Source: Limimonas halophila (GTDB lineage: Bacteria; Pseudomonadota; Alphaproteobacteria; Kiloniellales; Rhodovibrionaceae). Taken from it: a DNA stretch of 64,000 nucleotides. The notes under the pieces are model-generated. The model searched no databases. It was given only the letters and a program-made list of their open reading frames with translations, and had not been told where the DNA came from. The position numbers were made by a program, and so were the translations under genes. Positions within the stretch are counted from its first letter, which is position 1. Each line of letters starts with the position of its first letter. Where the stretch lies: NCBI RefSeq assembly GCF_900100655.1, contig NZ_FNCE01000009.1:1-64000 (forward strand), in the 5' to 3' direction. Shown piece by piece: positions 26,189 through 34,028 of the stretch.

Positions 26189-26653
26189 ATGGAAATTGCG
26201 GACCTGATCGGCCCGGAGGCGGTGATCCCCAACCTCCGGGTGACGAGCAAGAAGCAGGCGCTTCAGGAGCTGTCCCGGCGTGCCGCCCGGCTGACGGAGC
26301 TGCCCGAACGGCAGATCTTCGAGGTCCTGGTGGAACGGGAACGCCTGGGCACCACGGGTGTGGGCAACGGCATCGCCATTCCCCACGGGAAGCTGAGCGA
26401 TCTGGACCGCCTGCACGCGCTCTTCGCGCGTCTGGAAAACCCGATCGACTTCGACGCCATCGACGAACAGCCCGTGGACCTGATCTGCGTGCTGCTGGCA
26501 CCGGAAGGGGCCGGGGCCGATCACCTCAAGGCGCTGGCGCGCATCTCCCGCCTGCTGCGCGACCGCACGGTGTGCGAAAAGCTGCGCGGCAGCGAAAGCG
26601 CCGACGCGATCTACGCCATCCTCACGGAATCCGCGGCCAGCCACGCCGCCTAG
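26189..26653 (+). CDS. ptsN: PTS-Ntr EIIA protein PtsN
   Basis: 154 residues. Phosphorylatable His66 lies in GNGIAIPHGKL. Regulatory EIIA of the nitrogen-related PTS, probably phosphorylated through HPr and EI, both encoded in this window at 48.9-51.0 kb. Start ATG 26189 with GAGG upstream; GTG 26180 in frame is less likely. Last gene of the rpoN-hpf-ptsN run. Confidence 0.94.
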   Translation: MEIADLIGPEAVIPNLRVTSKKQALQELSRRAARLTELPERQIFEVLVERERLGTTGVGNGIAIPHGKLSDLDRLHALFARLENPIDFDAIDEQPVDLICVLLAPEGAGADHLKALARISRLLRDRTVCEKLRGSESADAIYAILTESAASHAA

Positions 26654-26864
26654 AGCAGATCGCCGTAAAGCGGAATCAGCTTCTTCGGGGTGTTACGCCC
26701 ACACCGCCCTGGCCATCCCGGCGTGATTCCGCTTGCTCGTGCGTGAAGCGGCCGACAGGCCGGTGAGCGCCGCAGGCGCTGAAACTGCTCGCACACGAAA
26801 AACTGGAACCAAGCGCGAGGTTTCCAGCTTTCTCGGCAAACACGATTTTACGCACGACGCTCTA
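26651..26864. repeat. TAGAGC-bounded intergenic element
   Basis: Starts with TAGAGC overlapping the ptsN stop and ends with GCTCTA (inverted). Inside is a second inverted pair GCGGAATCA (26668) / TGATTCCGC (about 26724), and the A+T-rich ACGATTTTACGCACGACGCTCTA near the right end. This looks like a degenerate dispersed element of the kind common in alphaproteobacterial genomes. No second copy is seen in the window. Confidence 0.4.
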
Positions 26865-26900
26865 ACGCGGCTCGGGACGCGGGAAGGCTTCAAACGCAAC

Positions 26901-26931
26901 GGGGCGCCCGGCCGACGGGCGCCCCGTTTTT
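26901..26931 (+). terminator. Rho-independent terminator downstream of ptsN
   Basis: Perfect 9-bp stem GGGGCGCCC / GGGCGCCCC with a 7-base loop, then GTTTTT. It is the best terminator in the window. The group II intron begins three bases after the T run. Confidence 0.9.
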
Positions 26932-27351
26932 CGGTGTGCCAGGCATGGCGCTGATCTTGGAGGTGAAAGTCCTCTTCGTGGCCCTGGTGGCGGGAAGCGA
27001 TAGCCGAAGGCAACTGCGTCGTCGCGAGGCGGCGTGGGGAGGAAGCTGGAGGCAAAGTGCGGGGCCGACGTACAGGAACCGGATACGAGGCCGCTGCGGG
27101 TGGGTAACCCGGCCGAATACGGGGACGCCCGATAGCCACCCGGAACGCGCGGCGGTAAATCCGGCGGCGACCGCACGAAGGATCAGTGTCTTACCCTGGG
27201 AGGTCTCCCGGTTTCCCCGGGCGAGCCGGGGCAGGAGGCCGGCGACGGTTTCCGACGGACCGGGAGAAGTCAGCCGAGGTCATAGTAGGCCGGGCTTTCC
27301 GCCCTGCCGAAGGACCGAAGTCGGTCGCCAAGGAGCAGACTGGCCCGTTCG

Positions 27352-28812
27352 ATGACCGTAGCGCGGCAGCAAGCGGCCCCAGCCCAGTTCCGGTTCTTCG
27401 ATGCGTCGGATATGGGCCCAGCCCGCCACCCCGAGGCCGGCAACGCCGGCAGCGAAGCTGGCACGCGGGAGGCGCCGCAAGCGGTCGCGGCACGGGCCGA
27501 GCCCCGAGCCTTGCCGACCTTTGTGATGGAGGAGGTCGCCGACCCGGCGAACCTCAACCAGGCCTACAAGCGGGTGAAGGCGAACAAGGGCGCCGCAGGC
27601 GTCGACGGCATGCCCGTCAGCGCGCTCAGGGCCTGGATCGCCGAGCATCGGGACTGGCTGGTCACGGCCCTGTTGGACGGGACGTACCAGCCGGCCGCCA
27701 TTCGCGGGGTCACGCTCCCGAAACCGGGCGGCGGGACCCGGCAACTGGGCATCCCGACGGCCGTCGACCGCCTGGTTCAACAGGCGATCGTCCAGGTGCT
27801 GGAGCCCAAGCTCGACCCGACCTTCTCGGACTCGAGTTACGGGTTCCGGCCCGGGCGCAACGCCCATCAGGCGGTGCTGGCGGCGGGCGATCACGTCGCG
27901 GTGGGCGCGACCATCGTCGTGGACCTCGATCTGGAGAAGTTCTTCGACCGGGTGAACCACGACGTGCTGATGGCGCGTCTGGCCCGGCACGTCGCCGACC
28001 GGCGCCTGCTGAGACTTGTCCGACGCTTTCTGCAGGCCGGGATGCTGGCCCAGGGCTGTCACACCCCGCGCTACGAGGGGACCCCGCAAGGCGGTCCGCT
28101 CTCGCCGCTGATGGCGAATCTCCTGCTCGATGACCTGGACAAGGAGCTTGAGCGGCGGGGCCACCGGTTCTGCCGGTACGCCGACGACTGTAATATCTAC
28201 GTCCAGTCCCAGGCGGCCGGCGAGCGCGTGATGGCGTCGATTTCGGCGTTCCTGGAGCGCCGGCTCCGGCTCCGGGTCAACCGGGCGAAGAGTGCGGTAG
28301 CGCCGGTGCAGCACCGGCAGTTCCTGGGCTATCGCCTGCATCGCGACGGCGGGCTGGGGATCTCCCCGGAGGCCTACCGCCGGGCCACGGCCCGGCTCCG
28401 GGCGATCACCAGCCGGCGGCGGGGCGTGCCGCTCAGCCACGTGATCGCGGAGGTGAACGCGTTCACCACGGGCTGGGTGCGATACTTCCGGCACGCTCGG
28501 GCCAAGCAAGCCCTGACGGCCCTCGACCAATGGCTCCGCCGGCGCCTGCGGTGTTTCCGGCTGAAGCAGGCCAAAACGCCGTCGGGCCTGCGCAGCCTGC
28601 TGACCCGCAATGGCGTATCCCGGCCCACGGCCCGCAAGCTGGCCGGGTCAGGCCGCGGCTGGTGGCCGCTGGCCAACACGCCGCAAGCCGCCCACGCTCT
28701 GTCCCAGGCTTGGTTCGACCAGCGCGGCCTCAAGGCCCTGGTCGCCCATTACAAGGCGGTCACCACGACCGATAACCGCCGTGGTACGAGACGCGTATGC
28801 CCGGTGGTGTGA
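27352..28812 (+). CDS. ltrA: group II intron reverse transcriptase/maturase
   Basis: 486 residues, complete. RT motifs: GVDGMPVSALR, PKPGGGTRQLGIPT, SYGFRPGRNAHQAV, DLDLEKFFDRVNHD, GTPQGGPLSPLMAN and catalytic YADD in RYADDCNIYV. The C-terminal maturase/thumb domain includes FTTGWVRYFRHA. No HNH endonuclease domain is present, as in class C proteins such as the Geobacillus IIC RT. The first about 58 residues precede the conserved region; ATG 27526 is an alternative start. Host targeting would be by terminator recognition. Confidence 0.94.
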   Translation: MTVARQQAAPAQFRFFDASDMGPARHPEAGNAGSEAGTREAPQAVAARAEPRALPTFVMEEVADPANLNQAYKRVKANKGAAGVDGMPVSALRAWIAEHRDWLVTALLDGTYQPAAIRGVTLPKPGGGTRQLGIPTAVDRLVQQAIVQVLEPKLDPTFSDSSYGFRPGRNAHQAVLAAGDHVAVGATIVVDLDLEKFFDRVNHDVLMARLARHVADRRLLRLVRRFLQAGMLAQGCHTPRYEGTPQGGPLSPLMANLLLDDLDKELERRGHRFCRYADDCNIYVQSQAAGERVMASISAFLERRLRLRVNRAKSAVAPVQHRQFLGYRLHRDGGLGISPEAYRRATARLRAITSRRRGVPLSHVIAEVNAFTTGWVRYFRHARAKQALTALDQWLRRRLRCFRLKQAKTPSGLRSLLTRNGVSRPTARKLAGSGRGWWPLANTPQAAHALSQAWFDQRGLKALVAHYKAVTTTDNRRGTRRVCPVV

Positions 28813-28843
28813 GAGGGGGGCGCCGTAAGGCTCCCCCCTACTC
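28811..28843 (+). other. candidate group II intron domain V
   Basis: Hairpin starting GAGAGGGGGG, closed by a GTAA tetraloop, with a 2-base bulge on the 3' side and ending CCCCCCTACTC. Size (33 bases), GNRA loop and bulge position fit domain V. The catalytic triad assignment is uncertain. Overlaps the last two bases of the RT stop codon. Confidence 0.6.
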
Positions 28844-28881
28844 GATTGCGGTGCGCGGAGGTCCGTGTTTCCGGGGCGGGG

Positions 28882-28937: not shown

Positions 28938-28977
28938 ATGGCCTCATTCTGTCTTTCTCCTGAAGGAGAAAGAACCC
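28938..28977 (-). repeat. dispersed 40-bp palindromic repeat, copy B
   Basis: Reverse orientation of the copy at 17111; 38 of 40 bases identical, including the full palindrome CTTTCTCCTTCAGGAGAAAG and AGAATGAGGCCAT. Lies between the intron and the M42 peptidase stop. Confidence 0.85.
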
Positions 28978-29037
28978 AATCGGCGATGCCGCGACCACGG
29001 ACCGATCCGAAGCCGACGACCTGAGAGCTGGTCGGGG

Positions 29038-31763: not shown

Positions 31764-32171
31764 TCACTCGCCCGTTCGCTGCGTTTTCGCGGCGTGGCGA
31801 GGCGCGGTGAAGGTGAGCAGTTCGTCCAGGGCGTCGGCCTGGAGGCAGGAGAGGGTGTCGCTTTCGGTGTTGTCGCGGCGGTGGGATTCCGTGACGCGGG
31901 CCTTGGCGGCGACGCCCGCCAGGCTGTCGGCGGGGATGAGTTGCATGGCGTCCGCCGCCGCGAACATGCGCTCCATGTGGGTGTCGATGAGCGGATCGTC
32001 CTCGGGCGCGCTCGCCATACGGTCCAACAGCGCCGCGCGGTGGTCGTGAAAGCTGCGCTCCAGGGCCAGCAGCCGCGCGTCGTTGGCCCGCGCCGAGCGC
32101 ATCCAAAGGCAGCCGAGCACCGCGCTCGCGGCCACGCACGTGCCCCATCGCAGATGCGTTCCAGCCCGCAT
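31764..32171 (-). CDS. secreted protein of unknown function
   Basis: 135 residues from ATG 32171 with GGAGG five bases away. An N-terminal signal (WGTCVAASAVLGCLW then SARAN) suggests export; the mature part is helical and acidic (ERSFHDHRAALLDRMAS, DTHMERMFAAADAMQLI). No enzyme motif. It has an excellent own promoter and is divergent from a small HTH regulator, which makes regulation by that protein likely. A longer frame back to 32243 is rejected because it would mask the signal peptide. Confidence 0.7.
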   Translation of the reverse strand: MRAGTHLRWGTCVAASAVLGCLWMRSARANDARLLALERSFHDHRAALLDRMASAPEDDPLIDTHMERMFAAADAMQLIPADSLAGVAAKARVTESHRRDNTESDTLSCLQADALDELLTFTAPRHAAKTQRTGE

Positions 32172-32274: not shown

Positions 32275-32514
32275 ATGAACGGTATGCAGTGCCGAATGGC
32301 GCGGGCGGCCCTGGGGCTCGGGATTCGCGAGACGGCGGACCGGGCGCAGGTCGCGCCCTCCACGCTGCAACGGATCGAGCGGGGCGAGGACGTGACCGTC
32401 TCGCGCCTCACGGCCGTTCGCGCAGCCCTGGAAGCGGCCGGCGCCACCTTCCTGCCCGACGACGGCAACGGGCCGGGTGTTCGCGTTCGGCCGAACGGCA
32501 CGGAAACGGCGTAA
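32275..32514 (+). CDS. small HTH (XRE/Cro-C1 family) transcriptional regulator
   Basis: 79 residues. The HTH_3 domain covers most of the protein: MARAALGLGIRETADRAQVAPSTLQRIERGE shows helices 2-3 with the typical STLQRIE recognition segment, then LTAVRAALEAAGATFL. No effector domain. ATG 32275 or 32284, both with weak ribosome binding sites. Divergent from the secreted-protein gene over about 100 bases containing phased heptamers. Probably a local repressor. Confidence 0.8.
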   Translation: MNGMQCRMARAALGLGIRETADRAQVAPSTLQRIERGEDVTVSRLTAVRAALEAAGATFLPDDGNGPGVRVRPNGTETA

Positions 32515-32518
32515 GTAG

Positions 32519-32553
32519 GGCGCCTTCGCACGCCGTCAGGCGTGCAAGGCGCC
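32519..32553 (+). terminator. strong hairpin after the HTH gene
   Basis: GGCGCCTT + bulged C + GCACGCC, loop GTCA, GGCGTGC + AAGGCGCC: 15 pairs with one bulge, starting five bases after the stop codon. No T run, so termination strength is uncertain. Confidence 0.55.
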
Positions 32554-32575
32554 GGCACGTCGGGAAATCTGCTCC

Positions 32576-32610
32576 GGCGGCATGCCGCGCTGGTGCGCGG
32601 CGATGCCGCC
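32576..32610 (+). other. second strong hairpin of identical architecture
   Basis: GGCGGCAT + GCCGCGC, loop TGGT, GCGCGGC + bulged G + ATGCCGCC: again 8 bp, one bulge, 7 bp and a 4-base loop, but with unrelated sequence and the bulge on the other strand. Confidence 0.55.
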
Positions 32611-32635
32611 CTACGAGTTTCCGCAATTTAATCGA

Positions 32636-32674
32636 TGATCCGCGCCCAATTGCGCGCATAGAGCCCGCGGATCA
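32636..32674 (+). other. inverted repeat between HTH gene and rlmI-like gene
   Basis: TGATCCGCG / CGCGGATCA, 9 perfect pairs separated by 21 bases. Confidence 0.45.
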
Positions 32675-32711
32675 GTGCCGGTCCGGATGGCGACGATTCC
32701 CAAGATGGACT

Positions 32712-32817
32712 CAAACATCGCGTTTGGAAGGCGTCCATTGGACTGACAGATGCGATTAAACACGCTTGTGTTTAGCGTCCGTTGGCCTGACGGATGCATG
32801 CAATACGCTTGTATTGC
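32712..32817. repeat. tandem ~43-bp units with covarying hairpins
   Basis: Three hairpins in series: CAAAC..GTTTG (32712-32726), TAAACAC-GCTT-GTGTTTA (32757-32774) and GCAATAC-GCTT-GTATTGC (32800-32817). Units two and three share the loop GCTT but have different stems that keep pairing. The linkers are alike: GCGTCC[A/G]TTGG[A/C]CTGAC[A/G]GATGC. The last hairpin reaches the stop codon of the rlmI-like gene. Confidence 0.75.
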
Positions 32818-34028
32818 TAGTCCAGCGTCAGGGCCTGGCATTTCAGGTAGCCGGTTTCGGGGAGCCAGGGGTGGATGGGGTGGTCGGGGCCGGCGCCGGC
32901 GAAGCGGAGGATGCGGCCGCCGCGCCCCACGTCTTCCAGGCCGCGGCGGATTTGTTCGCCGAAGGTGTGCGCTTCCACGTGGTGGGAGCAGGAGCAGCAC
33001 ACCAGGATGCCGCGCGGGGCGACGAGGCGCGCGGCCATGCGGGCCAGCTTGCGGTAGGCTTTGACGCCCTGCCAGTAGTCCTTCTTGGCCTTCACGAAGG
33101 CGGGCGGGTCGGTGACGACGATGTCGAAGGTCTGCCCGGCCTTGTGGCGGGCCTCCAGGTCGGCGAAGACCTCGCTTTCCACCGTGGAGAAGCGGTCGTC
33201 GACGCCGTTGAGCTCCGCCGCCTCGCGCGCCTTGTCCAGCGCGGTTTCGGAGCGGTCGACGGCGATCACCGAGGCCGCGCCGCCCAGCGCCGCCTGTACG
33301 GCGAAGCCGCCGGTGTAGGAGTAGGCGTCGTAGACGCTGCAGCCCTTGGCGAGCTGGGCGACGAAGGCGCGGTTGTCGCGCTGGTCGAAGAACCAGCCGG
33401 TCTTTTGGCCCTCGCGCGGGTCGGCGCGGAAGTGGGCGCCGTTTTCCAGCACGGGGATGGGGCCATCCAGCTCGCCCAGGCCCATGCGGACCTCGCGGTG
33501 CAGCCCCTCCTGCTCGCGCGAGGCGCCGTCGTTGCGCAGCACGATCGCGCGCGGGGAAAAGACGCTCTCCATCGCGGTCAGCAGCTCGGGCGTCAGGCGC
33601 TCCATGCCCGCGGTGTTGATCTGCACCACGAAGACGTCGCCGAAGCGGTCGATGACGGCGCCGGGGAAGCCGTCGGCCTCGGCGTGGGCGAGGCGGTAGT
33701 GCGGCGTCCCGATCAGGCGGTCGCGCAGGTCGCGGGCGCGGCGCAGGCGGTCGGCGAAGAAGCCGGCGTCGATGCGGGCGTCGGCGTCGACGGTGAGCAG
33801 GCGGGCGCAGATCAGCGGCTTCTTGTTGAAGACGTAGGTGCCGAGCGCCTTGCCCTGCTCGGTTTCCACGCGCACCACCTCGCCGGGCGGGATCTGCTTC
33901 GCGGCGGCGTTCATCTGGATCTCGTTGGCGAAGATCCAGGGGTGGCCGACCTTGGCGCGCTTCTTGGGGTTGTTGGCGCGCAGGCGGACGACGGGACGCT
34001 CCGCGAGGGAGCTGGCGGGCGAGGTCAT
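32817..34028 (-). CDS. rlmI: RlmI-like 23S rRNA cytosine-C5 methyltransferase
   Basis: 403 residues. An N-terminal PUA-like domain ([23 protein letters not shown]) precedes a central EEHEE-type region and a Rossmann SAM domain with [26 protein letters not shown] and CCSCSHHV, matching the RlmI/YccW class that methylates 23S rRNA. The start overlaps the stop of the upstream gamma-glutamyltransferase gene (ATGA), so the two form an operon. Hairpins at its stop may end the transcript. Confidence 0.88.

Follow-up and report, generated by a model that had tools for sequence, protein, structure and literature searches.

The repeats most similar to those described here are the REPs. REPs adjoin the 3′ ends of ORFs, those of the GTAG group often provide the stop codon, and REP dimers are mostly arranged head-to-head (PMC3733652). 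In S. maltophilia, one REP forms a perfect palindrome of 8 bp around the loop GCT, and its enzyme cleaves less well when the loop or the GTAG tag is altered (PMC8266576). In CGTC REPs, an 8–9-bp stem starting with A/T bears CGTC at one end and is accompanied by a CCA-like tail (PMC3733652). In IS608, a short 5′ guide pairs and makes triplets with other parts of the strand (PMC5934647).

In this study, the window was a stretch of 64,000 nt (positions 1 to 64,000 of contig NZ_FNCE01000009.1) from Limimonas halophila, in which two repeat units were found in tandem on the plus strand beside a gene for an RlmI-like RNA methyltransferase. Unit 1 begins with a type-A head (TTCCCAAGA...GGCGTCCATTGGACTGACAGAT; 32697–32751), delimited by alignment with the type-A heads of other loci. 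It is followed by the tag GCGAT (32752–32756; consensus G-S-GAT), assigned from the S-S′ complementarity counts given below, and by the tail hairpin TAAACAC-GCTT-GTGTTTA (32757–32774), read directly with Watson-Crick pairs at 7/7 positions. This tag starts with two bases that can pair with the GC at the start of the hairpin loop. Unit 2 consists of a short, 5′-truncated head (GCGTCCGTTGGCCTGACGGA; 32775–32794), the tag region TGCAT (32795–32799; GC at 32796–32797, then AT), and the tail hairpin GCAATAC-GCTT-GTATTGC (32800–32817), also with 7/7 Watson-Crick pairs. Short heads with an equivalent start recur in other arrays (L017, L066, L082, L085, and L086). The RlmI-like gene, identified by NCBIfam and by its relatives, occupies 32817–34028 on the minus strand with its stop codon TAG at 32817–32819; base 32817 is shared by the unit 2 hairpin and this codon, as expected from the initial annotation, which had the array end touching the stop codon.

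Both hairpins were present as first reported, 43 bp apart from start to start and with similar linkers; their stems differ at three of the seven positions (1, 2, and 5), not at four as had been counted. The related hairpin reported ahead of the pair, CAAAC-ATCGC-GTTTG, was also present (32712–32726, plus strand), but it lies within the type-A head, and no consensus base pair was predicted when 24 full type-A heads from other loci were aligned (mean column identity, 78%). Since it sits in the head region and is not conserved elsewhere, this hairpin is probably incidental. Folding of the hairpin region was better than that of 200/200 shuffles on the plus strand (z −3.77) and of 199/200 on the minus strand. 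Perfect 7-bp hairpins with a 3–5-nt loop numbered 40 in the window, and only 4 of them, namely the two of the locus and two copies of another repeat, had at least 4 A/T per arm. A separate hairpin, GTGATT-TTC-AATCAC (31764–31780, minus strand), shares bases with the stop codon of an ORF of 159 aa; the best other match to it had an E value of 0.035, so no strong second copy was present and it was rejected as a second family.

The array at the RlmI-like gene belongs, as one locus among others, to a modular repeat family dispersed through this genome. When 32690–32830 was compared with its own genome by BLAST, 29 matches were obtained at E up to 10, the query itself included, and 24 of them had E ≤ 0.01. 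The tail pattern GSRAYNAAACN{5,9}GTTTN, by which no pairing is demanded at the variable places, gave 63 matches in the same genome versus 0 for the reversed control; reading covered 61 distinct sites. Dozens of additional copies were found that combine new stems with a similar loop and linker, the kind of support named in the initial annotation. Units were observed about 600 bp or less from an end of contigs C1, C3, C7, C11, C18, C19, C22, C24, C25, and C26 (10 of 26 contigs); therefore, the true arrays may exceed their assembled length.

Searches outside this genome covered 37 genomes by BLAST and 60 genomes of the order by tail pattern, all of other genera. The former gave one 27-bp match (E 0.0058; locus L033), judged to be due to chance because no tail hairpin was found there on reading. 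The latter gave 0–14 matches per genome, similar in magnitude to the 0–24 of the reversed controls. As a foreign-genome control, 91 of the matches listed were collected, and among the 74 with room for a stem and a loop, pairing occurred 25 times at X, 21 times at Y, and 23 times at S, with 3 matches pairing at all three; a match in genome G021, in which all three rules hold, was without a head on reading. A query with head C, run against 385 genomes of the class, matched only the one it was taken from, with at most two candidates scored per genome among the matches listed. Two exact head patterns gave no match in viral contigs, plasmids, and phages, and one exact tail pattern gave none in a database of genome contigs. 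At the limited sensitivity of these searches, no convincing relatives of the family were observed in 37 and 384 other genomes. The Rfam search of the window had no match at the locus, and at a permissive E value neither 12 other loci nor 32500–32900 had a match reaching the gathering score. In the literature searched, no description of this repeat family was found.

The main tail (type 1) consists of the tag G-S-GAT and a 7-bp hairpin, N-AAAC-XY / Y′X′-GTTT-N′, with a loop of 3–5 nt usually starting with S′C. The commonest loops were CCTC, GCTT, and GCT in hairpin lists that, like those used for the boundary counts below, had been restricted to those pairing at six or more of the seven positions. 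This common tail was found behind several types of head, including A (TTCCCCAAGACAGCC...GGCGTCC...CTGAC), B (CCGCTCAGAACCTCGTAC), C (GGTCGTGAGAGACCC...GACGCCGGTGTCGAGTGAC), and at least two rarer ones; when units were sought by head and not by tail, heads A, B, and C all led into the same tail. A second tail type, GKTT-CCAAAGA-TCA-TCTTTGG, gave 32 pattern matches versus 0 for the control and alternates with type 1 inside arrays. The arrays read were direct repeats, with outward-facing tails at two loci (leuS-holA and L195). A second insert (GACAG...GCGCGC) was seen in four arrays (L028, L080, L097, and, on the reverse strand, L062), at the same place in the tail just after the tag.

Pairing fractions were drawn solely from sets in which no pairing was demanded at the variable positions. 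Watson-Crick pairs were formed at N-N′ in 54 of the 61 pattern-selected sites, at X-X′ in 58, at Y-Y′ in 58, and between tag and loop (S-S′) in 59. When counted as 50 distinct tails, the numbers pairing were 44 (N), 47 (X), 47 (Y), and 48 (S), as compared to maxima of 28, 34, 28, and 40, respectively, in 20,000 shuffles. The pattern-selected tails have only two S states because the pattern admitted C or G alone, and common ancestry may therefore account for some of the S correlation; a third S-S′ type, T-A, was found at the mutM site. In 38 distinct tails with four-base loops, 95.3% of cells paired versus 76.2% after shuffling, and 70 cells were changed on both sides and 0 on one side only; slid controls of these tails had 1–12 double changes. 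Counts of pair types and of double-change pairs were not above those of shuffles, being reached by 495 and 467 of 500, respectively, as expected with only four variable pairs. Units sought by head provided further compensated stems (e.g., CCAACGC, TAAGCTG, CGACCTG, and AAACCTC). The AAAC/GTTT core was near-constant, with pair positions 2–5 varying in few units. In the heads, no pair with a double-sided change was found, head C having only 3 nearly invariant predicted pairs; covariation within the unit appears confined to the tail hairpin and its tag. These results strongly support the compensatory change proposed in the initial annotation, as copies elsewhere in the genome carry other, paired stems. 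Its reading as a functional fold is partly supported, the covariation being in the tail, but the unit is neither an isolated tandem nor, on present evidence, a stable functional RNA.

Two further regularities were observed in the tails. Stem position X was A, G, or T, and never C, in the tails examined. In type-2 tails (36 hairpins), the tag base K tracked stem pair 5, with T accompanying A-T in 17 and G accompanying G-C in 14, and 2 more having G.T. This association is as if a base triple were formed, and two lineages could explain it too.

The covariation between loop start and tag suggests a small pseudoknot on the plus strand, where pairing of GS with S′C over a 3-nt linker would make a standard H-type pseudoknot possible. 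On the minus strand, a pseudoknot is unlikely on geometrical grounds, as three bases would have to span the seven-pair stem on its wide side. The argument follows established rules of pseudoknot geometry and not a computed model. Since the plus strand is antisense to the neighbouring gene at most sites, the 3′ end of an mRNA is not likely to be the carrier of the fold. That the main tail type has no one-sided changes points to DNA, or to a correcting mutation process, rather than to RNA. In contrast, the departures from pairing in type-2 hairpins were 6 G.T and 0 A.C on the plus strand, which would suit RNA.

A total of 63 array-terminal hairpins were collected, from which two chance hits in the window and two hairpins at contig ends were removed. 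A gene boundary is abutted by 49 of the 59 remaining tails. The boundary was an opposite-strand stop codon in 42 of the 59 (31 at offsets −3 to +3, 10 at −8 to −19, and 1 at +9); in the 10 with offsets −8 to −19 the stop codon lies inside the hairpin, and in 40 of the 42 cases it is inside or touching it. As most gene-facing tails of the family do likewise, the contact with the stop codon at the RlmI-like locus is not a coincidence. Start codons were found at 5 of the 59, including those of holA (−1) and mutM (+1), both identified by NCBIfam. The other genes were named by eye: argG-like at +10, the gene at L040 at +8 or +11, and polA-like at L195, which is a start-codon case only if the start is TTG at −4 and not ATG at +38. 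At mutM (L217) and holA (L053), the hairpin and the start codon are within 1 base of each other; a Shine-Dalgarno sequence was seen at neither gene. Two terminal tails touch tRNA genes, at the 5′ end of tRNA-Ala (L058) and the CCA end of tRNA-Leu (L065). By our reading, ten terminal tails lie off boundaries: three meet a GCGGATT repeat, three meet a truncated unit, that of L080 is followed by a hairpin and then by an interrupted unit, those of L200 and L223 run into unrelated inverted repeats, and that of L076 is without a head. Other repeats in the same loci (20 copies from four families) lay 7–328 bp from a boundary, 1 of the 20 being under 10 bp. The gene feature closest on the head side, in cases where one was found, was 110–673 bp before the tail and in either orientation. 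No gene-side motif besides the stop codon was found in 33 flanks.

The RlmI-like protein matched the NCBIfam model RSP_2647_MTase over model positions 1–389 of 391, with a score under its cut-off. All 20 full-length matches from other genomes aligned through residue 403 of 403, and two further relatives in the matches listed stop at 396; judging from these alignments, the C-terminus is native. Twenty proteins adjacent to arrays were scanned, 16 of which had a model. The best model ended 2 residues or less from the protein end in 7 of the 16 (YchF, GyrB, TrpS, LeuS, SSADH, SdhB, and GapR). LeuC, PurB, and a CoA ligase, whose stop codons are at −18 or −19, were 4–9 residues longer than the model, with the final five residues and the stop codon encoded by the hairpin. 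In the remaining six (GlnA-like, formate dehydrogenase-like, glyoxylate reductase-like, RecX, thioredoxin reductase-like, and PurC), the protein extended 4 to 22 residues past the model, which gives little information on truncation. The trpS gene takes its stop and its last codons, CTA AAC, from the outer arm. Truncation of genes by insertion was rejected, since with 7/16 models ending within 2 residues and 20/20 for RlmI most genes reach the junction unbroken. With genes mostly intact and no gene-side motif, the junction seems to be set by where a gene can be touched and not by a target word, and insertion or erosion bounded by selection is favoured over sequence targeting.

Several described systems share features with this family. 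Integron attC sites have R and L box pairs in a fold of about 57 bp or more and contain AAC/GTT. The tails have one 7-bp stem, without a second covarying stem, and only their AAAC/GTTT core is similar. The BOX elements of S. pneumoniae, a member of another phylum, are likewise modular intergenic repeats; they were compared by description only. The GTAG REPs of REPtrons (TnpA-REP, RAYT) are also short tagged intergenic hairpins with a perfect stem and a small loop. A hairpin of 5–13 bp with a short loop in many intergenic copies, as is typical of GTAG REPs, was found here (7 bp, loops of 3–5 nt, and 63 matches), as was the position near ORF 3′ ends with supply of the stop codon (42 of 59 terminal tails). 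The family is different from GTAG REPs in having GSGAT or a close variant, not GTAG, at the 5′ hairpin foot, in forming direct repeats in the arrays read here and not head-to-head dimers, and in possessing a tag that covaries with the loop and heads that are long and modular. No match to the Y1 (tyrosine HUH) transposase model PF01797 was obtained at E ≤ 0.001 in the 26 contigs of this genome, compared with matches in 5 of 14 control genomes.

CGTC REPs resemble the family in being alphaproteobacterial palindromic repeats that have no known dedicated transposase (PMC3733652); their CGTC foot, 8–9-bp stem from A/T, and CCA-like tail are absent from the family. Three CGTC-like copies, by a pattern of our own, occurred separately in the loci fetched. 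IS200/IS605 ends, as exemplified by IS608 (PMC5934647), are similar in that a short 5′ guide accompanies a hairpin folded from a single strand. Elements of this kind carry tnpA and two subterminal hairpin ends with guides, and the family is distinguished from their derivatives by the absence of a PF01797 match and of a recognisable second end in the arrays read. Moreover, the IS608 guide pairs with other parts of the strand, whereas the tag described here would pair with the loop of its own hairpin, a variation on the theme. From the contact with stop codons and the perfect small-loop hairpin, the family works like a REP, and by its tag it falls outside the GTAG and CGTC groups. Contact with stop codons is already known for REPs; the tag, the tag-loop covariation, and the modular heads look new.

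With moderate confidence, we regard the family as lineage-specific, orphan, non-autonomous REP-like mobile repeats that are recognised as a folded single strand. The folded plus-strand tail would be the mark for a mobilising enzyme, in the way that TnpA-REP enzymes read tagged REP hairpins. Copies would be mobile only while the fold is intact, and we propose this need as the reason for the compensated stems in the tails. Units would then accumulate as direct repeats whose ends coincide with gene boundaries, in most cases stop codons, positions at which they are tolerated. The differences from known REPs weigh against this explanation, namely the lack of a GTAG or CGTC tag, the direct-repeat orientation, and the lack of a PF01797 match in the genome itself, as do the two S states, for which shared descent may account in part, and the G.T departures of type-2 tails that would suit RNA. 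In addition, stems could be kept perfect by palindrome correction without any enzyme. Such a mutational origin, in which template switching during replication perfects short palindromes so that both arms change together in passive repeats, is considered unlikely. It would yield the observed 0 one-sided changes in 38 distinct tails, and the short loops of 3–5 nt suit the mechanism, but the S-S′ covariation between tag and loop falls outside the palindrome, and the near-constant AAAC/GTTT core is left without explanation.

A host function at the 3′ ends of genes, selected locus by locus (protection of mRNA 3′ ends, termination, or a barrier between transcription units), is quite unlikely. The 42 of 59 terminal tails at or nearly at an opposite-strand stop codon and the preference of type-2 departures for G.T over A.C on the plus strand would agree with it. 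However, no terminator-like site (a G+C-containing stem plus a T run) was found on either strand of 32450–32950, the putative pseudoknot suits only the strand antisense to the gene by our geometry, some tails are at start codons (holA, mutM, argG-like) or tRNA ends, gene features on the head side are distant and in either orientation, and the family was met in one sampled genome only. It is also very unlikely that the units are guide-programmed mobile repeats, in which the last 14 nt (GSGATNAAACXYS′C) contain a 7-nt guide with a 2-bp clamp flanking it, and the element would be inserted where a strand is complementary to the guide, chiefly at the last bases of genes. Insertion directed in this manner, with the element ending at these 14 nt, NAAACXY as the guide, and the outer arm Y′X′GTTTN′ as the matched target, was judged highly improbable. 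Internal units having the motif or a variant but no outer arm (three in L018, two in L057, one in L060 on the reverse strand, and a decayed one in L040) are as it predicts. Against it, 47 array-internal hairpins, in a list selected for pairing, retain the outer arm, and the 33 flanks have no gene-side motif. The trpS outer arm looks imported and not native, since it forms the last codons CTA AAC, of which CTA is presumably rare at the G+C content of this genome, and supplies the stop. If this explanation were true, the complementary variable arms would be a guide and its target, rewritten at each new site.

REPs are abundant, and the family bears on two open questions about them, the upkeep of their hairpins and the spread of orphan families. 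It supplies some 50 distinct natural tails whose stems are compensated, and the tag-loop pairing predicts which mutants should be recognised. Such pairing was not found as a recognition rule in the TnpA-REP descriptions consulted and, if real, would be a rule beyond them. That junctions are flush with gene ends must be accounted for by any model of insertion or erosion.

The intergenic regions of the family also contain other dispersed repeat families, namely AGAGCA..., TTTCTCCTGAAGGAGAAA, GGCGGATTGCCGC..., and a CGTC-type REP (window 26653–26870 and 28940–28980, L009, L011, L021, and L024). The window also has a group II intron with a reverse transcriptase/maturase at about 26930–28880 on the plus strand. 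Spread of the family by reverse transcription was rejected, the reverse transcriptase of this intron being the only RVT_1 match in the genome, with nothing to tie the intron to the family. The intron directly follows a G+C-rich terminator-like hairpin at about 26901–26932.
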